From the NCBI RefSeq assembly GCF_910596095.1, contig NC_056534.1, positions 15,203,490 to 15,267,489 of the forward strand: 64,000 bases of DNA, written 5' to 3'. A program made the position numbers and the translations under genes. Of the stretch, positions 538 through 63,921 are shown piece by piece. Numbering within the stretch: the first letter of the stretch is position 1; every line of letters begins with the position of its first letter. The notes below the pieces were generated by a model that was not told the origin of the DNA, did no database searches, and was given only the letters and a program-made list of their open reading frames with translations. The DNA comes from Thunnus maccoyii. Taxonomy: Eukaryota; Chordata; Actinopteri; Scombriformes; Scombridae.

Positions 538-6532
<5,995 letters not shown>

Positions 6533-8537: not shown

Positions 8538-9155
8538 AGATAAGAGGGGTATGCCCCTACTCTAGTCAAAGACAGGATTTCTCTCTTGGGCTCAGGCTAT
8601 CTAATGGTTTTTGCAACATAATTTTTGCTGTAGTACTGCAGAAAAAGATGCATTTTTTTAGACAATGAATAAAAACTGTGTTTATCACATATAACAATGT
8701 ATATGTAGGCCTTTAAAATGTAGCTGTCCATCATTTAGACCATACTGAGACTTAAATTAAACACCCTCTAATATATTATTCAGTAAATTTAGACTACTTT
8801 TCCTGTTGCAAAGCTTTAATATCAGCTGCTGTCTTGCACAAACATGCATGCAAAACAGAAAACCCCCTCTTGGTTTCCAGTTTGTTTACTAGTTTAGTTT
8901 CAGTTAGCGTTTCACAAACAAGCCTTTTGCCTTATAAGCAGCAGTTTAGAAAGCATAGAAAGGTTTATATGTATTTCCCCTATTTCTACATTCTGTACAT
9001 ATTTTATCCCTATCTCACACTGCCCGCACACAACTTTCCGCAGACTTTTTTTTTTTTTGCTGTCAGTGCTGTGCCAACTCCTCCAGCTTTACAAATATGA
9101 TAAGACTAACACTGTAAGAACTCTCCCAGCACTTTGGTAATGGTTAACCAGATAA
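8538..9155 (+). promoter_or_regulatory. cluster of GATA motifs upstream of hemgn
   Basis: Three WGATAR-type motifs lie in the 750 bp upstream of the hemogen start codon: AGATAAG at 8538-8544, TGATAAG at 9098-9104 and AGATAA at 9150-9155. Mammalian hemogen is a known GATA1 target, so the cluster is plausible as erythroid control, but such six-base motifs also arise often by chance in AT-rich DNA. Confidence 0.35.
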
Positions 9156-16200: not shown

Positions 16201-17817
16201 GTTTGTGACAGGTTTCAACATTTCAACATCTTTATATTAAACTCTGCTTGCCTATAGAGATTTTTTTTGCAGCTTGTAGTTAATTAAATTAAATGCAACT
16301 CTAAATGTTAAGCTGTCAAATTTAACTCCAGTCACAAAACACAAATAATTTACTCTGCTTGATGAAAATCAATACATTCCTGTCTTTAATTTCTAGGTGA
16401 TACAATACATCTGTCAGACATTGACATGATTGCTGGCACCCCAGTCCTGGATATCAAACCCTACATCCCAGAGTACGACTCCCCCAACACCAGGGTGGGC
16501 ATGGACTCTGAGCCTTATGAATCAAACACAGACCAATCGAAGGCATCAACTGTGTCACTAAATGGAACAACAGATATGATGAACCTCGATTACGACTCTG
16601 AAACAGATGCTCCGTCAAACCTAAAACCTGAAAGAACTGATGACGACTTTGGGAGTCAACTCTCAGAGGATTCATCCAAAATCCAAACTCAGTTTTTCCT
16701 GCCTGAAGACCTTCACAATGTGCTGGATGAGGTGAAGGGCTATGTGAGCCAAAGTGACCAGATAGATTGTGAGAGCAAGCCAGTTTCGGATGTGCCAAAA
16801 ATCAAGCCACCAGAGTCGACAGTGGACCGGCCTTGCTATGGCGAGGAAACCTACAGCACCATTGCTGGCTGGATCAGAGAGCCTCCTGTTGCCAGTCTGG
16901 AGGTGCGCTTCACCCCTCATGCTGAGAGGGAGTTAGCAGAATTCCTTCCCACACACCTGTCAGGTAAGTCATTTTGAAGCAAGTACTTCAGTTCAAATTT
17001 TCATTGTCCCAGAAGAGGAAATTCTTTTTGCAGCATAAAAACACAACAACATGAAACATAAACACAATAAAATCCCAATAAGGCAAGTGAAGACATTATA
17101 AATGCTGGTACTATGCACACTTTTCAGAATAAAATAAAGGATAAATGTTAAAAGCAAGAAATAAAGTGCTAAGCTGTGTGAGGAAATAAGAGGCAGTTTA
17201 TAATTTGTTAGAAATGAGAGCACTTCTTGCACACATGGGATAAATGAAAACTTGAACCTATTGCACCTACTTTTTGGAAACCTGCATGTCTGACTAGAGG
17301 GAAGGGTGGTAAATACCTTAAAGAAAGGATTGTCTGGATTTGATATGATGGATTTAGCTTTCCATGTGATTTGTTTGCTATAAATGTGTGACAGTAGGCT
17401 TCTGCTTACTGATGATTTTACTGTAATTTTGTGTTTCTAGAAGCTTGTTGTCATTTTGAAAAAAGCACCCTCTTGTGTCACCACAAGAGGGTGCTGTTGT
17501 GACAGAGATGAATATGAAAGCAGCAATTCATTGCAGAACAGTGTGCCATCACTACATAAATCAAACTTGAATGCCTCACAGGTCCCCCTGAAAGTGACAG
17601 ACCCAGGTTTAAGTTTCTGAGCAGTTCAGACGAGGCCACTGCCGCCATCAGAGGGGTGCTGTCAGCAGACCCACGGTCAGTATACAGGAGGACTCGCTGT
17701 AAAGACCGACTCTTCTTCTTCACCCTGGACACAGCTGACATCACTTGCTGGTTTGGACAAGGCTTTGCTGAGGTACTGCAGGTCCGACCTGTTGAGTGCC
17801 ACATTGCTTCGATGTGA
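13259..17817 (+). CDS. trmo: tRNA (adenine(37)-N6)-methyltransferase (Trmo / YaeB-TsaA family), complete
   Basis: Six exons: 13259-13347, 13544-13692, 14733-14907, 15954-16111, 16397-16963 and 17582-17817, about 457 aa (human 441), all phases closing. Residues 1-55 are a predicted coiled coil (LNKLNQQVSVMRKEIKNLR). Residues about 83-218 are the TsaA/YaeB methyltransferase domain: VPIGYISSCFSVKNGTPRQP, FNNPEHALVGLEQYSHVW, FLFHKNGHL, STRSPHRPNVLGLTLAKL and GTPVLDIKPYIPEYDSP. This is the SAM- and tRNA-binding fold in which the RSPxRPN and DIKPY segments are hallmarks. A poorly conserved acidic linker follows, then a C-terminal module (VASLEVRFTPHAE, SADPRSVYRR, FFFTLDTADITCWFGQGFAE). The enzyme N6-methylates t6A37 in ANN-decoding tRNAs to m6t6A. 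Intron 3 carries a SINE, intron 2 carries palindromic repeats, and intron 5 carries a perfect hairpin. Nothing appears broken. Confidence 0.97.
13858..14500. mobile_element. two adjoining copies of the palindromic 'ATTAATCG' repeat in trmo intron 2
   Basis: One copy runs roughly 13858-14267, ending TTAATCGACTAATCTTTGCAGC. A second partial copy runs from about 14270 to 14500, ending TCATTTAGTCGTTCCAGCTC. Both share the AAAATGTCAGAAAGTAGTGA and AATCCTCAAATCTGAGAAGCTG type blocks with the other copies. Exact ends are uncertain because the copies are diverged. Confidence 0.6.
15409..15767 (+). mobile_element. tRNA-derived SINE in trmo intron 3
   Basis: The 5' part is tRNA-like: GGGGCGGCTGTGGCTCAGAG (A-box region) and GGTTCGATCCC (B box, 15459-15469), followed by an embedded (GT)n run at 15535-15559. 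The 3' tail ends AAAGCGCTATATAAATGCAG, the LINE-shared tail of many fish SINEs. It carries the features of a complete SINE in the sense orientation of trmo. Confidence 0.88.
16993..17300. mobile_element. possible LINE 3'-tail fragment in trmo intron 5
   Basis: The start (TTCATTGTCCCAGAAGAGGAAATTC) resembles the TTTATTGTCCCTGAGGGGAAATT tail motif of fish LINE fragments; a similar motif is at about 45680. Beyond the motif it is AT-rich and featureless. Confidence 0.35.
17464..17495. repeat. perfect 14-bp inverted repeat, two opposed CTCF-like half sites
   Basis: AGCACCCTCTTGTG (17464-17477), loop TCAC, then its exact complement CACAAGAGGGTGCT (17482-17495), inside trmo intron 5. Each arm resembles the CTCF core CCAC-AG-GGG-GCT with about three mismatches. 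Confidence 0.8.
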
Positions 17818-21630: not shown

Positions 21631-24600
21631 ATGTCCTCCAGGAAGTCAAGTTCCAGTAGGCAAGACTCGGTAAGACTTTTGTGCTTTTTAATGCATAATG
21701 CACAGTGTTAAATAATGACTGAGCAAGCTATTAAAATTTAGTTTGACTTCTGTTGATGTTAGCCTTCAAGCAGATCTGGACAGCGTACCCCTATGAGAAG
21801 TCTGGAGAATGAATGGTTGCATCTGTCAACTCCATCATCAAGGTTCAAATCAAAATCACGGCTCAGTACGGATTTTGTGAAAACATCAAAGGTGCGTTGA
21901 TACTAATACCTGAAAATGCTCCATTAACGTTTTCCATGTCTCTGTAACTTTCTAACCCTCCAGTCATTTTCATCAACAGGGTGATGTTCCTCCATGTGAC
22001 CCAGAGCCCCATTTGCCCTCTCCTCCAACCAAAGTGATACAAACCAATGCTCCCAGTACTGATAATACAGCCTGTGGACTTGGAGATGTAACATTTAAAT
22101 CTTTTATCTGTGCTGGTGGTGAGGTTGAGATTTCATGCTCTTCAGAATGTGCAGGAGAGAGCATTGTTTTGCTTAAGGACCAGACTATGAATAACACCTG
22201 TGAATCAGAGGATACAGCCATATTTGACAGTATGATTGTGCAGTCATGCAGTGACCACATAGAACATCCGTACCACAATCCTGAGAGGAGAGATGCTTCT
22301 TCGGTCGACATTGACGCAGAACGTCCCTGTGAAATCCAAAACATTTCACTGGCCTCTGGAGACTTGGATGGTAAACAGACCACACAAGAATTCAAAGTTT
22401 TTCAGGAGGACTGCAGCAGAGAGAACGATGTCACTTGGAAATCCTTCGTCTGTGATGGAGGTGAGGTGGTAGTTTCAGATGTCACCAGACTACAAGATGA
22501 GACCATTCCTCTGCCCAAAGGAGAGCTTGGAGAGCTTTTACAAGACAACAGTGTAAATTCAAGCATCGTCTTTGACTGCGGCCAGTTGTGTCAAGCAGAA
22601 CATGCTGATCATCCCTACTCCAGCAGTGAAAAGTGTGTTGTTCCTGTCATCACTCACCTCACCACCTTTTCTGAGACCCAAAGTGATTCTGAAAAGCCTG
22701 GATTGAGTGATGTAACCTTCAAATCATTTAACTGCACCGGGGGTGAGATCGAAATTTCAGATGGCACCAAAATGGCAGATGAGACGGTTCCTCTACCAGC
22801 TGACCAAACTGCGACAAGCAGTGAGTCATGCAATCATGGTATAGATCCAAGCGCTTTAGCTGGTGATGATGATGATAATGATCACTTAGATCACCCATAC
22901 TGTAATACTGAAAAATATCCTGCAACTTTAAGTGGCGACCTCCCCAAAGCCCAGGAACCATGCAGCCCTCATGCGCTGGAAGAGGTAGAACCGAGTAGCT
23001 TGGTGGTACCTGAAGAGCAGACTGGCAGGCAAGATGGTGTCACATTTGGCTCTTTCATCAGCACACAAGGTGAGGGTGAACTATCAGGAGGCATCCAGTT
23101 GACTGAGAAGACTTCCCCTTTACTTAAGGACCAGGCTGTGATCTGCCAACTCCAGGATGACAACAATGTACCTACTCACATCACACAGGATCACATCCAA
23201 GACAACTATGAACAATCTAACAGCCATGTGGAAAATGATGAAGCTGTCTTAGATGCTGACCCACCAGCTGTCAGTGCATCTTCACTGATAAACACATCTT
23301 TAAAGGCTTTAGATAACGAACCTGTTCAATTAGAAGTCCAACAAACACCACAAAAACACTCCATGCATGCTGATGACAGTGCGTTGCCGTCTTTGCTACA
23401 TAAAACAGAGTCCGCTGACTGCAGCAATCTTGTGGCTTCAGCAGAGACTCCCACACCTGGGGAAGTGCAGCAGCATCCAGAACGTGATTCTCAAATGCAT
23501 TCTAGCAGAGGACCCTCTGAATCCAGTGAGGCGAAAGACAGTGCTCTTGGTTCATCTGGAAATGGACCACTTCCATGTAACGCTGCAGAAATACCTCGTA
23601 CAGAGACCCTCCCTGATGTTTTGAAAGTGCTGTCTGAATGTCCCTCAGTAGCATCAGTTTTGCAGTTGGGAATCCTCAGTCCTGTTATAAGGAGAGCTTC
23701 TCTATCTGTATTTAAGGCTCAAAGAGATCTGGAGAAAGATCAAAGAGCTCTGGACCAGTTTTTGATGGATGATTCTGCTCTCGACGGTGAGAAGAGCTTT
23801 TTGGCCCCTGCTAACGTTGACCCCCGAGGGTTATGGGCAGAACACTTGGAGAGCCCCATGCCTCGTCCTCTCTTCAACTCTACTGCTTTAGGTTTCAAGT
23901 CCCAGCCAGGCGCAGTCACAGAGTCAGCTGACAATTTGGATGTGAAGCCCTGTGCAGCGCTTCAGTCAGAAGCGGTGAAGCCGGTCCTGGATATCCCTAT
24001 GATTCTAGATGGTCCTCTGCAGCAGCAGCTGCGGCAGATGGCAGAGTTCCTCATCCTTGCATCAGGAAAGATGGACCCTACTGCTGTCTCTGCTCCCTTC
24101 TCTGGTCCTGTCCCACCTCCTGCTGCCCCTGCGGTCACATCAGCAAGAGCTACTCCTGCAGAATCCCACAGCATCTGTGTGGGCACCAGTCCTGTGAAAC
24201 TGGTAGACCATAGCCTCAATACATCTGGCCAGTTTGAAAGAAAGAGGGAGTTCTCTGTGGATGATGCCTGCACTCTTACCGATCCTCTCCTGTGGAAGTA
24301 AGTGTTGGCTTGGAATTTGTTATTAAATAAAACTTACCGTTCATTTCCAGTGATAATTTATTATTCAGGCATGAGTGAGACTGCTTTCTGTAATTTCTCT
24401 GTCTGCCTCTCACTGTTTCTTGTGTCCTCTCAGTGTACCTGCAGGCAGCCTGGAGTGTCTCCCCCGAGAAGAGCTGGAGCAGAGATTAAGGTCTAGCATG
24501 ATCATGGTGGAAGCCTTGGTGCAGCAGTTGGCTGTAGCCAGAGCAAATGGAAGTCCTTCTGTCGGCCCAGCGCCTTCAGAGCTCAGGGAGAAGCTAGTGC

Positions 24601-27600
24601 AGACAGACCACACTGAACTCAGCCAGGTAAGGACACATTTAGACAACTTTAACGAGCTGACAGACAGAGATGTCTAGCATTTTGAGTCGGCACTTGTGTA
24701 TATGTTTTCTTTTTTTTTCTCTAAAAGAAGCCTCTTTTAGTTCAGCCCTTGGATGATTTTCACAGAAGCCACAATTTCTGTTTTTAATGGGCTTTTTGTT
24801 TTGTATAGACCACAATGTACAGAGGTCTATATATGGAGGCTTTGAGTCAGATTGGTGATTTGGAGCTTGATGGAAGTTCACTACAGAACCTCATCCAGTG
24901 TATGCAGGACATGAGGGTCACCATGGTGAGACACGAACAATGACACAACACATGTTATTTAATATGGTGGTTTAAACTTCAGTGTTAAAAAAAAAAACAA
25001 CAACTCTTGTATCTGTCCCAACAGACTTCTTTGTCTTGTGACACGGATGCTGCTCTCTCTAACATGAAGGAAATGGGAGACATTGTCAGAGAAGACCATC
25101 AAAGCCTTGCTTCACATGTATGTAAACATGTCTTGTTAGTATTCTTATATGATATTATATTACAGTATAATATTTTGACTGTGTGTTCCTGTGTTGTTCA
25201 GTACGGTGAGATGAGGTCTTTATTTGAGAAGTCAAAGGAGACACAGACACGAATGATGCAGAAGGTCAAAGATGTTCTTCAGCAAAGAGATAACATGCAG
25301 ACACAGATGGAGGAGGCCTTCAATGTTAAGGAGGCGGTAAGCACACCGACTAATCTGTAGTTTTGTTTCTGGCTCCATGTCTATTCCAATCCTTGTTCCA
25401 GTTGCTCCTCTCTAGGATGCAACAAGAAAATGTTTTGTTGATATGTTGTATTAATGAAGCCAGAACTTCTAATCATAAGATTATAGTTTTTTTGCTGTTG
25501 TTGAAAGATAACTATATCATTTTAGTTAATCTTGAGATGATTAATGATGATGGTTTACCAATAAATTGGGGTATTTAAATGAATATAGTGAAAATTAGGC
25601 AAATTCACAGATCGCTAATGATTGAACAGTTTATTAATCAGGAGTCTCCTGCTCCGACGGACCTGAATACATGTATAAAATATTAAAGTGTTTATTATTA
25701 TTGATAATATTGCCTTCTCAAGTTGTGTAATGCGCCTTGTTTTTCATAGCAGTATTCATTCCTGGCGCATTAAGTGTGTGTCTGATTGTGTGTTTCCAGG
25801 CTTTAAGTACGATGGAACAGCTGAGGAGAAACTGTGCCACAGAAATCTCAGAGCTGCAGAAGAGTGTCGGGTCTCAGCAAGAACTCCTGGATGCCCTAAA
25901 GACAACCTACCCAGAACAGGTACAAAGAAACAAAAACAAACATCCCTATTGTAAAGCATTTAACGTCATCTAATACATCTCACATCAGTGTTGCTAATTT
26001 CTGTTTATTTTTCTTTTATTAATGCAGGTTGCGTTAAACAAGGCCTACACTGAAATAATGGACTCTACTTCTGGTCTTTTGTCCCAAACTGTGGAGGAGC
26101 AATCCAGATTGATGCAAGAAGTATGTTAAATCTACTCTGTTATCTTTTAGAAAAGGGACTTACTGTGCTGTATGTAGGGATGCAGTTTGATAACATTGTA
26201 TTGAATTTAAACCAATATCAAATATGATATGAGATGATATAATATGAATCAAAGTTTAACTGGGAGATTCTTAAATTGACGTGAGGTAATTGGCTGTTTT
26301 TTCTTCATTTTAATGGGTTACCATGATGGTCAGTGCTGGCTAACTGCTACTACTAATGTTTTGTACATTTCTATTTGCTGATAAAAATAAGGAAAGAGAG
26401 ATAAAAGGTTTGATAAGGGATGAGTTAGAGTCAGAGCTTAACTAATTTGGGTATTTTGTTGACTGGAGACTGTATCTGAAATGGAACTGTAAGCGTTGAA
26501 CAATACCTTCCCATCAGTATGTTGCAATTTGTTAAAAGTCAGGATCTGCCAGGTGCTGCAAAAGATAAGCTGGAACAACCAAAATCGGATATGACAGCGC
26601 ACTAACATTTATTACAGACCATTGTATCTGAATTGTATTTTGATATTTGACAGTTCAGTAGCATCATGACAGTAAGTTACTCAATTACAACTTCGTTCTA
26701 CTTGTAATAGTGCTCGCAGTGCTGATGTTTTTTGTTTTTTTTGCATGGTCATGTTTTCACAGCTCTGCACAGTTAGGGGCCTTCTGCGGAAGACTACTCC
26801 CATGCTCATGAAGCTGAATGAAAAAGCAGTGGCTGCTTTGAGAGAAAGAGATGAGTACATCGCCGAAAGAGACCAAGCTGTTGAAGAGAGAGAGCAGGTC
26901 AGACTTCTCTCGCACCTCTTTTCACTTGTCTAGTAAGAATAGTAATGGCTGCAAATCAAGAAGATGATGAATGTCACTTACATGAAATTTTACTCAACAG
27001 ATTGAGGAGGAGTTGAACCAAGCTAATTTGAATCTCCAAAATGCCAGAGAACAGATTGGTGATTTCAATCTGCAAGTGACAATTCTGACTTCAGGTAAAA
27101 TGGAAATAAACATGTTAAAATTGTTTGTTTATTCCAGACAGTTTTATACATGGTCAAATTATTTTTTTACCTGTGAAAATTCATTCTTGCCCTTGGAAAT
27201 GGTAGCTTGACAAAGTAGATCTCAAGCGAGTAAATGGACCTTGAGTTAAGGTTATTTTGCTGAAATATAAAAATGCTGACTTTTCTTTCTTTTTGTTATC
27301 TGTCAGAGATGGGAGTGCTGCGTCAGAAGCTAACAGAACGAGATGAAGAGCGGGCTCAGCTGGAGAGGAAGGTGACTGAGCTGTCTGCCACAGTTTCCTC
27401 CACATTGGCCTCGTACACCTTCCTGGAGCAGGCCCTCGGTGCTGAGACCACTAAGTATGATCCCCATAACAACATTAATATGTTCATGGCACAAATCAGC
27501 TCGGAAATAAATACTGTGCTGCATTTTTATCAAAGGAGAATTTAAAAAAAAAAAGCAAACGAAAATGCTCACTGAAATCCAGCATGCGAGTCCTTTAAAA

Positions 27601-30600: not shown

Positions 30601-33600
30601 ATACAATGTTATGACCTTTAAACACCATAAAAAAACTGCAACATCAGCACTCTTAGACAGCTGAAATGGAAACCAGTGTCCTGAACAATGACACCCAGAG
30701 ATTCACCCAGAGATGTCTGTTTCATATTAATGACTCAATAACTCCTGTTGGCACCCATAAGTGGAGGCTATATATAAACAGATAATGAATGACAATATAG
30801 TAAAACACAGTTATAATGATATAAAGTCTGTCTTCATAGGATAAGAAATAATACATTACATTAACAAACACTGAAAATGTCCTTACTTGCTTATAACTAC
30901 ATTATAGTATGTTTTAAGAAAACATTAATTTTAAAAAGGGGGATTTAAAGTAAAGTGTTACTGCATCTCCTTCATGAAACAGGGTATAGATATCATTCTG
31001 TGAATTAAGGTTATGAGATAATTTCCCAAAGAACTCAAAACTCAAAATGCTCCTCTGTGAACTGGGGGTGACAGTGAGACGTGTTCTTGGGTTAAAATAA
31101 TCGTTGTGTTTTCTTCAATATTTCAGTCTGCTCTTGCAATTACCACATTTCCCCCGAGGAACATACACATGGCAGTCATTTTCTGCCTATCCTGGTTAAA
31201 TTAAACAGCTGAAATAGTCCACTGTATTTTGAATTAACACGTTTCAGAGTCATTTTAATCCCATCAGAATTTACGCGTGGTATTTGAAGCAATTATTGAT
31301 TTTTCACAGCTGGCATCTAGGTTACAAGGACCATAACTTTGTGAAACTGCAAATTGCAAAGTCTAATTACAACCTCTCCCTCCTAATGCACACCCATTCC
31401 AGAAAGGGATTAAATGTCATCAAATCTAATGACTTTGGGCAATAAAGGAAAAAAGTCTGAGTTTCAGTTCACTGTCTCTTCAGTTCCTTCAGACATGGCT
31501 GAGCCCCAGTGCGACACTTTGTTCAGTGAGACGAGCGCCTTCACCCGCATTGCAGCCGTCACCCCTAAAAAGAATTTGAACGCAGCAGAGTTTGAACCAG
31601 AAGAGGAGCAGAGCAATGCGGCAGAGCTGCTGGCTGACCTGGGCAGCACGGTCACAGAGCTCGTCAGCACCCTGAAGTTGTTGCAGCAACGCAAGAACGC
31701 TCAGCTGGAGGAGCTGCATAACACCATGTAAGTGATGGAAAATGTTCTTGTGCTGCTGAAATAAAAATAACCTTTTTTTTTTTTTAAATATGTGATTCTG
31801 TTCTGAGCTGTTGCCTGATACATGTAGAGCTGATTATTTTCAACATTGATTAATGATACATTGATAATTTTTGAGACTAACTGATTAACCATCTAGTCTA
31901 TAAAATATAAAAAAAAATAATAAATACAATCCATTGTATGATGTGACATTTCTTGTTTTTCCTGACCATTTATAGAAATGTAAAAAAAAGAGAACAGCAG
32001 CAAAGCCTCATATTTGATAAGCTGGAACCAGCAAATGTTTTGTTTTTATCTTATTAAATGACTGAAATTAATCTGATTGATAATATATTAATCTCCATCA
32101 ATATTGACAATTAAGCAAATGACTCAACTAACTATTTCAGTTGAATTTGTGTTATGTAGCAAGACTTTACAGCTGCTACCTTCGCTGTTCAACTTGGTGC
32201 TCAAGTGATAACAAAACCAAATTTGAAAAACACTTTCAAACACCTACAGATTTACTGAAAGTCTTCACTTTTTGAAAAAATCAAAAACATACAACCTTGA
32301 TCAGAAAATATAAAATAAGTTTCTGGATTTATAAGCTTGTTTCTGAGCTGAATGAATTAGTGATGTTGCTGCATTTTCTTTCACATTTGTCAGATTAGTG
32401 TCATGTATAGAAAAACTGTACTGTTCACATAGGCGTAATGCAAAATTATTGGCAGCCTGTGCAGTCATTCCACTCCAATGTTGTTTAATCTTTGTTCCAG
32501 CTGTGGCCTGCAGGTGGAGCAGCAGGCTGCAAACACAAGACACGAGGCCGAGGTGTCGGATTTAAAGCATCAACTTAGCCGTTTTAACCGTCTGGTTGAG
32601 AAGGGCAATCAGGCACTGCAGCAGAAAACGCAGGTAATCTACATCTAAGGAGTGTTGACTTCATTTAAAATGCTTAACAAAGGTCCAACAGCTAGAGAAG
32701 AGCTCTGAAAAGGTCTTTTAAAAAATGTTTCTCTTTTCACAGGATGAGAAAACAATAATGAAGTTGATGGCAGACATAAATGAAGCCCAAGACCTTCTAA
32801 CTAAACACAAGACTGACAATAATGTAAGGCACAACATTTTAATTATTCTGATCAGAAATACTTTATGCAGCAAATATTATGTTCTGCTGGCAGAGTCAGA
32901 GCTTTTTTTCTGTGTTAATTTTTCACAGGAATTACGGAAAGATGTGGTTGAGCTCCGTCGATCTCTCCAGCAGTCACAGGTGGAGTCTCAATTCCTGCGG
33001 GAGGAGTTGAGGAAAGCTGGTGGCCAATCAGCTAAGCCAGCGCATTTCATGGAAGAGAAGATTCAGTTATTGAAAGAGGTATGATCCCATCACTCATGGT
33101 GTGAGAGATACTACAGTTCGTAGGAAATGTCAAATAATTCATCATTGATAATTTGCATCTATTTAGGTTTTATTATAATAGTTTTCTGCCTATTCCCTGT
33201 GCAAACACTTGAGGATTTAATGTCTTTTTTTTTTGTTTAATGAACATCTCTTTGATTTCATCTGTAGGTAGAGAGACTGAAGTTGAGCGTTCAGGAAGTG
33301 GAGCAGGCCAGAGGTAAACTCCTCGAAAGAGCAAAAAGACATGTAAGTACAGGCTATGTACACAAACTACTGATATTCCTGACAACATACCTGCAACTTT
33401 GTGTATCCTCTTAAAATAGGATTAGATTGACTTTATGGGTAAATAGTAAAGTATGTGTTCATCATGTTTCTACAGCAAATCATCTACCAGACCAACCAGC
33501 AGAAAAGTGAGAATGAGCTTCTCCTGTTAAACACCATGATCAATAAAGTCCGAGAGGTGAGAGCTGATATTGTTTTGGTGCTTTCTTCCACCTTTTGTTT

Positions 33601-36021: not shown

Positions 36022-37113
36022 TCAGATAGCAGACACGAACCTGTCCATATTCCCTGGGTATGTGGGGTGTCTCAGGTAACCCCCAGTGTTGGCGATGGGA
36101 CCTGCAGCACTGTTATACTGGGAGAAAGAGCCCAGCTGCACAGGGGAGATCCTGCCGTAGTGGTCCAGGGTCTCTGCAGACCCGTGACCTGATGAATGGA
36201 GGCGACCTGTCGCCCCATACGCTTGGGTGTGGCCCTGTCCATATGAGCCCTGGGGGGTATGGTGGTGTGGGTGGCCATTTGGCCCGGAGTAGGTGAACCC
36301 TGGATGTGTGTTGGAGTGGGATGGCACGGCCCCTCCGCATGGTTGGCTCTGGAAACCTGCGGCTCCCAGGCTGCAGGGACTGGATCCATTTGGAAGCCCC
36401 TCCGGACTGAAGCTCCGGCTGTTCTGCTGCATCACCTCTGGCCCTTGGCCTCCAAGCATGCTGGCTGGAGTCGGGTGTCCTATGAGGTTATTGATACTGA
36501 ACATGCGGGTTTGACCAGGTCCGAACCCAGGAGGGGATGAGGAGGGGTAGTAGGCAGAGGGGAGCTGCTGCCCGTAGGGTGGACTAACTGTCATGTTAGG
36601 GTAGACTGAGTTGGTATATGCGGATCTGGCAATCTGGACAGGAGAGAAGACTGGCGTCTCATGCACATAGGAGGCGTAGGTGCTCAAGTCACAGCGCTTG
36701 AACCTCTTCCTGCGCCTCAGGAAACTGCCGCTCTCAAACATGTCCTCAGCGTTGGGGTCCAAGGCCCAGTAATTGCCCTTCCCTGGCCGCCCCGGCTCTC
36801 GAGGAATCTTGATAAAACAATCATTGAGAGTCAAGTTATGGCGGATGGAGTTCTGCCATTTCTTTGAATTGTCTCTGTAGAAGGGGAAGCGCTCTGTTAT
36901 GAATTTGTAGATGCCCCCCAGAGTCAGCTTGCGGTCAGGGGAGTTGGCTATGGCCATGGAGATGAGTGCGATGTAGCTATAGGGGGGCTTCCCTCTCTGA
37001 AGGGGTCTCTTCCTCCTCCGACCTCTTGGCTGCTCCTCTGTCTGCACCGAAGGGTTGGAGGCAGCCAAAGAGGTGTCTGCTGAAGAATCTTTCTCCACTT
37101 TGACTACTGGCAT
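36022..37113 (-). CDS. foxe1: forkhead box protein E1 (Foxe1), complete single coding exon
   Basis: 363 aa intronless coding sequence. Basic signals RRRKR (residues 32-36) and RRRKRFKR (133-140) bracket the forkhead DNA-binding domain at about 41-132 ([35 protein letters not shown], recognition helix [13 protein letters not shown], wing [16 protein letters not shown]). The C-terminus ends [13 protein letters not shown]...[10 protein letters not shown], matching the human FOXE1 end FYGRTSPGQFG...GGIDRFVSAM, which separates it from FOXE3. The poly-alanine tract of mammalian FOXE1 is absent, replaced by a Tyr/Ser/Pro/Gly-rich region with a His run (HPHHHTPQ). FOXE1 is a transcription factor in thyroid, pharyngeal and palate/craniofacial development. 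It is convergent with spag5 and has a long gene-poor upstream region that could hold its enhancers. Confidence 0.97.
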
Positions 37114-37136
37114 TGTTATGGACAGTTCAAAAACGT

Positions 37137-37270
37137 CTGCAAAAAGTAAGATTGCAAAGTGAACTTACTGTAGATACTAGTCCTTGCACAATCTTGAAGA
37201 AATTCCCACTGTCTGAGGACACAGATTAAATCCTGCTAGAAAGATCACATATGTTTTTTTAGCAACTCAC
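37137..37270 (-). other. foxe1: possible 5' UTR intron of foxe1
   Basis: On the minus strand, CAAAGACA|GTGAGT is a good donor (lower exon edge 37271) and CTTACTTTTTGCAG a good acceptor (exon resumes at 37136, 23 bases before the ATG). They define a 134-base intron. Mammalian FOXE1 is a single-exon gene, so this is only a prediction. Confidence 0.35.
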
Positions 37271-46126: not shown

Positions 46127-46656
46127 TAAGGGAATAGTCCAACACTTTGCTAAATACACCTGCTGGGAATTAAATGAGAAGGTAGATACTACTGTCATGT
46201 TTGTGTGCTAAATATAGAGCTGGAGCCAGTGGCCGCTTAGCTTAGCTTAACATAAAGACTGAAAACACGGGGAGATGGCTAGCCTGGCTGGGACCAGTTG
46301 CCAGGAAACTGACAGAAACTCCAGGAATTTACTGGCCAGGAAACAGTCCTGCACATAACCCTCCCATATAATGTTGAATTGTTGTTTTCACACTTTGGTT
46401 TTTCTACCAATTACTCAAACAAGAAAAAATGTTAATTAGTGAGCTTTAGAGGTGCCGATGTGCAGATTTTGTAACATTTGGACAGGGCCAGTCCAACTGT
46501 TTCCCTGTTTCCAGTCTTTGTGCTGAGCTAAGCTAACCAGCTGCTAGCTCCAGCTACATATTAACCGCACAAACATGAGAGCGGTATCGACTTACTCACC
46601 TGACTCTGCAGGAAAGTGAATAAGAATATTTCCCATAATGTCAAACTATTCCCATA
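46127..46656. mobile_element. 'AGTTTGACATTTTGGG' MITE, near full length
   Basis: The left end is TAAGGGAATAGTCCAACACTTTG and the right end ATTTCCCATAATGTCAAACTATTC, an imperfect terminal inverted repeat. The interior has the GCTTAGCTTAGCTTAACATAAAG block shared with the copy at 61379. Confidence 0.75.
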
Positions 46657-60915: not shown

Positions 60916-63900
60916 CTAGTGGGGCAGCGGCACCAGGATATCCACGTAGTTGATGGGGAAGAAGCCGGAGTTGCCGTGCAACATCCCTTCGTACCAGTTG
61001 TCATCGATCTTGTTGGTCAAGGTGATGATATCGCCTTCCTTAAAGCCTAGCTCACCTTCATTCTCGGGGTCAAAATCGTACAGTGCGCGACAGCAAGGCT
61101 GGTCCATGGGAGCTGGAGGAAAGGAGGACGGTTGGAGAGATAAGAGAAGAAAAGGCGAGTTAGAGGAGAAGCTAGATGTGGGGATAAGATGCTGCATATA
61201 GATTAGAGGCATAATGATCATAAGAAAACTCGTAAATGGCTGAAAAAGTGAGAGGCTCACCTGGAGACCTTGCTGAAAGGTGTAAAAAGAAGAGAAAACA
61301 GTAGAGAGGAGGAGACAAAACAAAAGACACAAAACTTATTTATCAGTGACCATAAAACAATAATTAGGCATACAGTGTTTAAAGGAATAGTTCAACATTT
61401 TGGGAAATATGCTTGTTTGCTTCCTGGCAGATAGTTAAAGGAGAAGATCGACCACTTTCATGTCTGTATGCTATATATGAAGCTACCGCCAGCAGCCAGT
61501 TAGCTTTGCATAAAGCCTGGAAACAGCTAGTCTGTTTTTGTCTAAAGGTTTCAAAATTCACCTAACAGCACCTAAAAAACTCACTTATTATCATGTTAGA
61601 TCTCATTTGTTTAATCTGTACAAAACCGTGCAGTTATGGTTTTACAGGAGGTTATTTGTTGGACTATTTCTTGGCTCTGAGCAGTTGCTGAAACTCAAGG
61701 AAGTTACTGCTTCTGGCCAAGTAGTAGCCTGGCACATAATGTCCTGTAAAATGGCACATCGTCTTTTTTATGCTTAATTTTTTTAATAAAAATGAAAACA
61801 AACTAAATCGTGTGTTAATTAGTAAGCTTTAGAGGTGCTGATGGGAGGATCTTTGTGCTAACCAAACCAGCTGCTGGACAAACATGAGCGTAGTGTCAAA
61901 CTTGTCATCTAACTCTCCGCCAGAAAGCGAATAAGCGTATTTCCAAAAATGTCAAACTACACCTTTAACAGTAAAAGAAACATGAGCAATTTCATAAAAT
62001 ACAGGAACAAAAGAGAAACCAGGGGTTAGACAGAAACAGCACTGCAGACGAGCTGCACTGCAGACAAAAATGCAGACAAAAAAATACAGTCTATTTAAAA
62101 AAAAAGATAAATAAATAAAGAGTGATAAAGAGATTTCACATCTCTTCCCAAGTCACTCTTGCTCACCTGGAGATCTTGCTGCAAAGGGGAAAGGAGAAAA
62201 CACAGGTGAAACAAGAGTACTTTAGCAATAGTATTATTTTAAATGGATAAATTGGAGGATGGATAAATGATGAATTAATATTAAATTGAATTAATAAGTA
62301 TTGTAGGCGCAGCAACAAAGAGGTCAATAAACAACAAGGCAAGAAGAAACAAGTAGGACAACAAATTGAAAGAGAGGCAGGGAGACAGACAGACAAAGAA
62401 ACAGGAGGATAAGACCGATCAGAGGATTGACAAGAGAACAAAACAGAAATAGCAAATGCTCGTCCGCTGCCAGTCTTTTCATTGTTATTGTAGATCTGCT
62501 ATTCTTTTATACTGTGAGCGGGCTGCAATTGTTTTTTCTGCTGTTCGTTGGTATCAATTGAATGCAACAATTTTTCATACCAAAGAGACAAACAGAAAAA
62601 AGAGATGGACAAAAAACAAAACAAGAATGATGAAGTGATTAAAGAGATATTGTTGTATCCAGGATTCACTTTTGTCTCACCTGGAGACCTCGCTGCAAAG
62701 AGGAAAAGACACGAGGGGGAGGGGGGGGGGAAGCAATGGAGGTAGTTTTGAGTTTTTTGCAAAAGATTGCAGTGTAAATGAAAAGGATGTAGTTGAAGAA
62801 ACTAATTTATGAGCGCACAGATGGAGAAACATATTGACAAGTGTGACCTAGGCTCACCTGGAGACCTCGCACCTAGAAGAACAAAAAAAAATCATAAAAG
62901 AGGGGAAAGAGAAGAGTGCAGAGTTGAATCTATTTATTCTGGACCGAAGGACATTCTGTACAGGTAAAAACTGAAATGTTGGGAAAAAGAAAGATAAAAT
63001 TAGCAAACACAACAAATGTACCATAAATTCTCAAATTGCAGCCTTTATCTCAACTGAGGAGAGAACCCATACTTTAATTTAAAAGCCTCCCTGTTTTCTT
63101 ATCTACTTCCTTTGCTGTATTAAAGGCAGGGAGGAAAAAAGAAGATGTAATCCAGGATTTAAAATCAGCTTTGGAAATATTTTATGTGAAAAGATAAGCA
63201 TTAATTCTGTTTGTTAGGCCTTAAACATACACTGAATGCATTTTGGGAGGAAACATTGAATGTAAACATACTGTAATTTTGTTTGTTTACAAGAAAACCC
63301 CACATGGTACCTTTAATTATCTTAAAACCCCTGAAAGGCTTTTATTTCAAAACATCTGCAGAAATGGGACTTTCAACAAATCAAAATAAAAATGGCCATA
63401 ATTAAAGCGAGCGAGTGGTAAATATGGTATGGGTGTGCAGTTTTACTAATTACATATGCTGTAGAAATGATTGAGACTAAATTAAATTTACCCCTGAAAG
63501 CATTTTTGAACATCTATTGGATATTGGATTTCCTTTTTTTAATGGTCTGTATTTGTTTGAGACTTGACTATCACATCTTTACAGGCTTTTATTTGAGAAT
63601 TTACAGTAGAAATAAAAACATAGAGAGGGTTAAAGCAAAGAAAATCATGAATAAATAGAAACTAGCCCAGAAACCTGTACAGTTGAATTCTAATCTACAT
63701 TAGACACAAACTTGTGAGATTCCCCAATGACAGACTAAAGTGTGTCCACCCAGGCTGGTTTCTGGATATATTTCTGAACGATGAGGTTTCTGTTACTGGA
63801 CTCACCTGGAGAGCGAGCACTGTGGATGCCTCCATTGTGGTTCTCACTGATGGAGAAGTCCAGAGATGTACGCGGTTTAGGCATGTACTCTTTCCTTGGT

Positions 63901-63921
63901 TTGTTAGAACAATCCCTTATC
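60916..63921 (-). CDS. sh3gl2: endophilin-A1 (SH3 domain GRB2-like 2), C-terminal part, gene continues beyond the window
   Basis: Minus-strand exons in order: 63806-63921, 62858-62872, 62681-62692, 62167-62178, 61261-61272 and 60916-61112 (stop TAG at 60916-60918). The first encodes the end of the BAR domain and the linker ([20 protein letters not shown], then SARSPG), against human [20 protein letters not shown]. The last encodes the whole SH3 domain ([57 protein letters not shown]), closest to SH3GL2. All junctions have the same phase, so the four microexons can be used or skipped in any combination. The SH3 domain binds Pro-rich dynamin and synaptojanin, and the BAR domain bends membrane in synaptic vesicle endocytosis. 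The N-terminal BAR exons lie to the right of the window. I cannot tell the teleost a from b duplicate. Confidence 0.93.
61261..61272 (-). CDS. sh3gl2: sh3gl2 microexon 4 (12 nt, Ala-Arg-Ser-Pro)
   Basis: CTTTCAG|CAAGGTCTCCAG|GTGAGC on the minus strand. Joined to the preceding G it reads GCA AGG TCT CCA. The intron to the SH3 exon is only 148 bases. Confidence 0.75.
61379..61969. mobile_element. 'AGTTTGACATTTTGGG' MITE, full length, between sh3gl2 microexons
   Basis: The left end is AAAGGAATAGTTCAACATTTTGGGAAATATGC and the right end, on the other strand, AAAGGTGTAGTTTGACATTTTTGGAAATACGC: a terminal inverted repeat of about 40 bp with few mismatches. About 590 bp, non-coding. The copies at 44935 and 46127 belong to the same family. 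Confidence 0.82.
62167..62178 (-). CDS. sh3gl2: sh3gl2 microexon 3 (12 nt, Ala-Arg-Ser-Pro)
   Basis: CTTTGCAG|CAAGATCTCCAG|GTGAGC on the minus strand, reading GCA AGA TCT CCA after the preceding G. A UGC motif sits directly at the acceptor, as in neural microexons controlled by SRRM4. Confidence 0.78.
62681..62692 (-). CDS. sh3gl2: sh3gl2 microexon 2 (12 nt, Ala-Arg-Ser-Pro)
   Basis: CTCTTTGCAG|CGAGGTCTCCAG|GTGAGA on the minus strand, reading GCG AGG TCT CCA. A UGC motif is at the acceptor and a pyrimidine tract precedes it. Confidence 0.78.
62858..62872 (-). CDS. sh3gl2: sh3gl2 microexon 1 (15 nt, Gly-Ala-Arg-Ser-Pro)
   Basis: TTCTTCTAG|GTGCGAGGTCTCCAG|GTGAGC on the minus strand, reading GGT GCG AGG TCT CCA after the preceding G. 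It is the longest of the four and closest to the end of the full-size exon at 63806. Confidence 0.72.

Follow-up and report, generated by a model that had tools for sequence, protein, structure and literature searches.

The analysed window, a stretch of 64,000 nucleotides of Thunnus maccoyii (NCBI RefSeq assembly GCF_910596095.1, contig NC_056534.1, positions 15,203,490 to 15,267,489 of the forward strand), belongs to a genome of 782 Mb in 54 contigs. The final 3.4 kb of the window cover the 3' end of a minus-strand endophilin A gene. In this gene, the teleost sh3gl2a, the intron before the exon for the SH3 domain very likely harbors four homologous cassette microexons in tandem, as judged from the DNA and from gene models of other fishes. 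On the minus strand, a linker exon is followed by four short segments (microexons 1 to 4, ME1–ME4) and then by the SH3 exon (Table 1). Each segment has a pyrimidine tract and an AG upstream and a GTGAG downstream, and all junctions of the array are in phase 1. Four such segments had been claimed in the original prediction, which was made from the letters alone, and all were recovered at the positions it had assigned to them. Translation likewise bore out its claim that they encode the (G)ARSP peptide with which the linker exon itself ends. The 3' end of that exon reads ...GCTCGCTCTCCAG and is followed by GTGAGT at 63806 (donor CAG/GTGAGT). With all four microexons spliced in, the introns measure 933, 165, 502, 894 and 148 nt. 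Microexons are internal exons of at most about 27–30 nt with an acceptor and a donor of their own; the segments are 12–15 nt long and are bounded by the top-ranked sites of the intron.

Table 1. Features at the 3' end of sh3gl2a in the window, in the order of the minus strand.
Feature	Positions	Strand	Exon sequence	Content	Splice-site score	Basis
Linker exon of sh3gl2a	63806..63921	-		38 residues and the first base of the next codon		sequence, translation
Array-bearing stretch between the two full-size exons	61113..63805	-		2693 bases
Microexon 1 (ME1), 15 nt	62858..62872	-	GTGCGAGGTCTCCAG	adds GARSP	25.8 bits, best microexon candidate of the intron
Microexon 2 (ME2), 12 nt	62681..62692	-	CGAGGTCTCCAG	adds ARSP	22.7 bits
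Microexon 3 (ME3), 12 nt	62167..62178	-	CAAGATCTCCAG	adds ARSP	25.3 bits
Microexon 4 (ME4), 12 nt	61261..61272	-	CAAGGTCTCCAG	adds ARSP	23.0 bits
Last coding exon	60916..61112	-		AP-MDQPCC..., SH3 domain through stop codon		translation

The reading frame is kept by any subset of the microexons, because the exons end in G and the first two bases of the next segment complete a Gly or Ala codon. A script that spliced every subset found all 16 inclusion combinations in frame, each with one terminal stop. The prediction of up to 16 isoforms therefore holds for mRNAs but not for proteins, of which only 8 are distinct, since ME2, ME3 and ME4 encode an identical peptide. Similarly, the predicted steps of four residues apply to ME2–ME4, whereas ME1 contributes five; full inclusion adds 17 residues (51 nt). 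The number of Ser-Pro motifs between IHS and DQP rises from 1 with no microexon to 5 with all four, as had been foreseen for the region beside the SH3 domain. The same interval contains 0 to 3 S-P-x-R motifs, the basic form favoured by CDK-type kinases, depending on the combination. ME1 alone creates no such motif because it adds a glycine.

Simple matrices for acceptors and donors were used to score splice sites, and candidate microexons of 6–18 nt were ranked. ME1–ME4 are the four highest candidates of the intron (22.7–25.8 bits), while the other five listed score at most 17.5 bits and all overlap ME1–ME4. Above 22.7 bits, a threshold chosen post hoc as the lowest score of the four, both strands of the window hold just one further candidate, 6 nt long, at 46605. 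In 1000 dinucleotide shuffles of the intron, the mean number of candidates above this threshold was 0.002 and the maximum was 1. The 12-mer TCTCCAGGTGAG occurs 6 times in the window with at most one mismatch, whereas shuffled sequence gave 0.23 occurrences on average and never more than 2. Five of the six occurrences are exact, and these are the linker exon end and ME1–ME4. On the basis of both sets of shuffles, chance or low complexity was rejected as the origin of the segments.

The gene is, by sequence, of the endophilin A1 type, as originally proposed. This is indicated by the SH3 match, by the ordered matches from N-BAR domain to linker and by the names of the nearest proteins. The best Protein Data Bank match of the SH3 exon is the Endophilin-A1 SH3 domain (2knb, 3iql; E 8.2e-38). 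Among the best 120 of 921 protein matches, the nearest full-length proteins are labelled sh3gl2a or endophilin A1 and come from many percomorph fishes, the top one being 93% identical across the whole linker–SH3 query; this agrees with a percomorph source. When the Eleginops maclovinus protein P0001 was compared with the genome, seven matches were obtained besides the SH3 exon, ordered on the same strand and covering residues 15–287. One of these is the linker exon inside the window, which aligns with residues 242–287. The most upstream match carries one TAG, and no match to residues 1–14 was found in this genome search.

ME1–ME4 are, to judge from their sequences, homologous neighbouring exons of the tandem-duplicate kind. 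ME1 shares 12 of its 15 bases with the final 15 nt of the linker exon. Among the five cores that code for ARSP (linker end and ME1–ME4), three positions vary, in each case synonymously. Single changes could be made in 144 ways, 45 of them synonymous, which gives a probability of about 0.003 that five independent changes are synonymous throughout. This suggests that selection acts on the ARSP peptide, provided that the changes, at least five in number, were independent; a constraint on splice signals could contribute. The flanking introns, described in the original prediction as unlike, were indeed dissimilar in this test: when 120-nt flanks were compared in 20 pairings, no similarity was significant (500 shuffles each). 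The lowest p was 0.056, for the downstream flanks of ME2 and ME3, and any likeness is visible by eye only. No significant sign of duplication together with flanks, which would leave conserved intron blocks around the copies, was seen in these comparisons. The copies are thus either old or were small. A putative copying of the linker exon's 3' end, as originally proposed, fits the identity to ME1 and the synonymous-only core differences. The simplest reading is serial copying, in which the linker exon end would have been copied and then its copies in turn.

The proteins of other fishes were analyzed for units at the corresponding position. Three lists of matches were used (best 120 of 921, 120 of 1658 and 120 of 1292, the first with 8000 candidates scored), all consisting of representatives of 90% clusters. 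We assigned the species to clades, and the proteins to the sh3gl2a type by their names and linker sequence. Of 209 proteins, 84 were excluded as sh3gl2b-type, non-teleost or unclassified; 125 entered the analysis, 18 of them unparsed. As the parser is restricted to units with a terminal S-P or T-P, constancy of these residues is not to be read from the result. The percomorph sh3gl2a set comprised 81 proteins, of which 65, from 58 species, were parsed. At least one extra unit was present in 39 of the 58 species. The maximum per species was four units in 2, three in 4, two in 9, one in 24 and none in 19. The two species with four units are Eleginops maclovinus (P0001; GARSP-AISP-ARSP-ARSP) and Nothobranchius furzeri (P0003; GARSP-AKSP-ARSP-ARSP). 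A GARSP, GPRSP or GAKSP unit is present in 13 of the 16 multi-unit percomorph proteins and stands first in all 13, as predicted from the position of ME1 in the window. In Etheostoma, Perca and Sander the last unit is ARTP, and their species show the sets GARSP-ARSP-ARTP, ARSP-ARTP, GARSP-ARTP and ARTP alone, as expected of independently skipped cassettes. Seven species had two parsed proteins, and the unit sets differed in six of them. The counts were 4 and 0 in Nothobranchius furzeri, 3 and 2 in Etheostoma cragini, 2 and 0 in Gouania, and 1 and 0 in Parambassis, Archocentrus and Cyprinodon tularosa. These differing sets, the strong splice sites and the preserved frame agree with the cassette-like behaviour originally proposed. 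Mutually exclusive tandem exons were rejected, since protein models with 2, 3 or 4 units per chain contradict them. In three models (P0005, P0016 and P0031) an ARSP unit is followed by GEP or GEH, which looks like the use of a more downstream microexon donor.

The non-percomorph sh3gl2a-type set (44 proteins entered, 42 parsed, 36 species labels) showed three extra units in pike, two in cod, one in Aplochiton and one in each of four osteoglossomorph labels. The remaining 29 of the 36 labels, including all parsed otophysans, clupeiforms and elopomorphs, had no extra unit. As the lists hold the best 120 matches and 90% cluster representatives, a zero count neither proves nor excludes absence. 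Among 23 non-teleost proteins from bichirs, sturgeon, coelacanth, sharks, amphibians and reptiles, not counting the broken model P0008, the number of R/K-S-P motifs ahead of the SH3 exon never exceeded one; one motif was found in 4 and none in 19. The sequence KTPGTP, with two T-P motifs, occurs in five shark proteins. The linkers of bichirs and sturgeon end in AAKSP or TAKSP ahead of APM, and a single unit of the ARSP kind at the exon end is therefore probably older than the array.

In the same genome, no array was found in the gene here named sh3gl2b (C22:23018000-23027999) or in four other endophilin-A-like genes, and in none of the five did a microexon candidate exceed 15.5 bits; the intron bounds of these paralogues were placed by eye and the linker exon of the C5 gene was not located. 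The linker exon of sh3gl2b, near 8652-8800 of this interval, ends in AKSP-GRSP beside its donor. It thus has two units like those of the array, but they lie inside the exon, and its short intron has no microexon candidate. The same spot therefore gains units in more than one way. Repeated units of their own at the equivalent spot are also found in the sh3gl2b-like proteins P0091, P0121, P0122, P0157 and P0158 of pike, salmon and clupeoids; that of P0091 is KSP-GPARSP-VPARTP-GRAP. These proteins suggest that units were gained in parallel in the duplicate gene.

We propose that inclusion or skipping would be decided separately for each microexon of sh3gl2a, most probably by neuronal regulation of splicing. 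Such control is expected because human EndoA1 is mainly a brain protein, according to passages of PMC12457278, and because endophilin B has an exon, equally placed in fly and mouse, that is reported to be regulated by Srrm3/4 (PMC8797185). Inclusion would lengthen the disordered linker between the BAR and SH3 domains in steps of 4–5 residues up to +17 and raise the Ser-Pro and S-P-x-R counts over the ranges given above. It may quite possibly tune SH3 reach and switching by proline-directed phosphorylation in this way. A 2025 review (PMC12457278) describes the endophilin linker as flexible, disordered, 37–58 residues long and less conserved. It also reports that a linker swap alters endocytic function, that the linker bears modification sites, and that DYRK1 phosphorylation of Ser263 in Ciona EndoA is required for optimal endocytosis. 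Given these properties, SH3 reach and phosphorylation could plausibly be adjusted by up to 17 additional residues and four additional Ser-Pro motifs immediately ahead of the SH3 domain. A more specific proposal is speculative and rather doubtful at present: the independent neuronal cassettes might act as a splicing-built rheostat of phosphorylation and length, setting the number of S-P-x-R motifs (0–3) and SH3 reach and thereby tuning synaptic vesicle endocytosis by cell type in percomorphs.

Several observations weigh against the array as proposed. The peptide varies in other fishes (AISP, AKSP, ARTP, VRSP, GPRSP), 19 of the 58 percomorph species have no extra unit and only 2 have four. The evidence from fishes consists of annotation models rather than junction reads, for which full transcript support may be lacking, and a unit in a protein may derive from a microexon or from an exon end, as in sh3gl2b. 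The annotation is also noisy, 16 of the 81 percomorph proteins being unparsed and several showing read-through or alternative acceptors. SRRM3/4 targets are expected to bear a TGC motif close upstream of the acceptor. Within 30 nt of the acceptor, such a motif is present for ME2 and ME3, absent for ME1 and ME4, and also present for the full-size linker exon, which gives a mixed picture. That the segments are chance or cryptic sites which are never spliced is nevertheless highly improbable. The array is known here from sequence and gene models and not from junction reads, but shuffled introns almost never yield such sites, and the annotated proteins of other fishes carry such units in the order of the window. 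If the array were spliced in a constant or nearly constant manner in each species, it would alter linker length between species and not between isoforms. A single unit set was indeed found in 52 of the 58 percomorph species, though 51 of these 52 had only one parsed protein. The two sets in six of seven species with two parsed proteins speak against this explanation, and names such as isoform X5 and X12 within one species imply many annotated isoforms, so that fixed splicing appears unlikely.

The main rival to the functional reading is near-neutral tolerance of extra linker residues. The microexons would then be real and spliced, the disordered linker would tolerate 0–17 residues, and copies would be gained and lost by drift. 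This is possible, although we consider it somewhat doubtful. It would account for the range of 0 to 4 units between species and for the variation in unit sequence (AISP, AKSP, ARTP, VRSP, GPRSP, GSRSP and AARSP), and it fits a linker described as disordered and less conserved (PMC12457278, in part). Drift does not readily explain that the five copies in the window differ only synonymously, with the p value and assumption of independence given above, that all four microexons have strong splice sites, or that the G-containing unit is always first in the multi-unit percomorph proteins which have one. Alternatively, the repeated basic R-S-P might serve mainly as a docking site, either in cis for the SH3 domain of endophilin or for some other partner, with inclusion setting an autoinhibited state. 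The units directly adjoin the SH3 domain, but their prolines are spaced P-x-x-x-P, compared to P-x-x-P in the consensus of common SH3 ligands. Autoinhibition of endophilin A1 via H0 and SH3 has been proposed (PMC12457278, in the portion consulted). On balance, docking appears quite improbable.

To our knowledge, the origin of new microexons is poorly known. If the rheostat proposal is true, microexons have multiplied as an exon end was copied in series, and this in lineages outside the zebrafish and mammal catalogues. With near-identical copies next to the similar exon end and unit numbers that vary across many fishes, one could trace how microexons are born, duplicated and lost. Since the peptide that is added hardly varies, the array would also provide a natural experiment on the effects of linker length and of the number of Ser-Pro motifs in a protein that is key to synaptic endocytosis.

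Outside sh3gl2a, the window contains an open frame with a forkhead domain (36022-37164, minus strand, E 7.6e-38), which we take to be FoxE1-like, and on the plus strand a frame with the end of a tRNA methyltransferase O domain (TrmO_N; 16390-16977). A leucine-rich frame at 2763-3095, presumably ANP32-like, has an LRR_4 match below its cut-off. Together, these three frames are reminiscent of human 9q22. A very long open frame of 781 amino acids (21956-24301, plus strand) may start a multi-exon coiled-coil gene extending to about 33 kb; three stretches of this putative gene (21956-24298, 24375-24674 and 32722-33081) gave no Pfam match.

As originally supposed, no description of the array was found in the literature searched, although a bare entry in supplementary microexon tables is possible, and no paper was found that joins SH3GL2 with a microexon. 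In the excerpts obtained, endophilin passages of the microexon literature concern endophilin B, or endophilin A3 as a binding partner. Neither endophilin nor sh3gl is mentioned in the main text, to which the search was confined, of the MicroExonator paper or of two papers on zebrafish microexons; a zebrafish list of 1882 microexons has been published (PMC7821500, in part). The lack of an extra unit in the sampled otophysans (zebrafish relatives), amphibians and reptiles may explain why the array has escaped notice.

Combinatorial splicing of microexons itself is already known, and the array is a variant of it. In troponin T and NCAM1, several tiny cassettes between constant exons are combined as mini-exons. 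These encode different peptides, whereas the sh3gl2a cassettes are near-identical copies of the end of the preceding exon. To the extent searched, a row of such copies with a species-dependent number of units was not found elsewhere. Like exons of the neuronal SRRM3/SRRM4 programme, ME1–ME4 are in-frame candidate cassettes of 12–15 nt that adjoin an SH3 domain in a gene of the synapse; unlike these, they form a series of four copies of one unit. A related gene in the programme is endophilin B (EndoB, SH3GLB1), whose splicing by SRRM4 has been reported (PMC5891588, in part). It likewise has a regulated microexon, but it is a B and not an A endophilin, with one exon and no series of copies in the passages available. 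Neighbouring microexons are known from the 9- and 6-nt pair of Dctn2 (PMC7821500, in part). RPS24 has three microexons between two larger exons and several isoforms (PMC11162997, abstract); in contrast to sh3gl2a, it encodes a ribosomal protein, and the abstract mentions no repeated peptide unit. Schistosome micro-exon genes have coding regions that consist mostly of symmetrical microexons and products that are reported to be secreted or gland-associated, whereas here a single intron of a gene for an intracellular protein holds one short array. A gene of this type was rejected for sh3gl2a, as the array comprises only 51 nt and the remaining gene matches in longer stretches. Tandem duplicated exon substitution events also involve homologous adjacent exons that arose by duplication, but those exons are mutually exclusive (PMC9741552, in the part consulted), whereas the copies in sh3gl2a can be added together.

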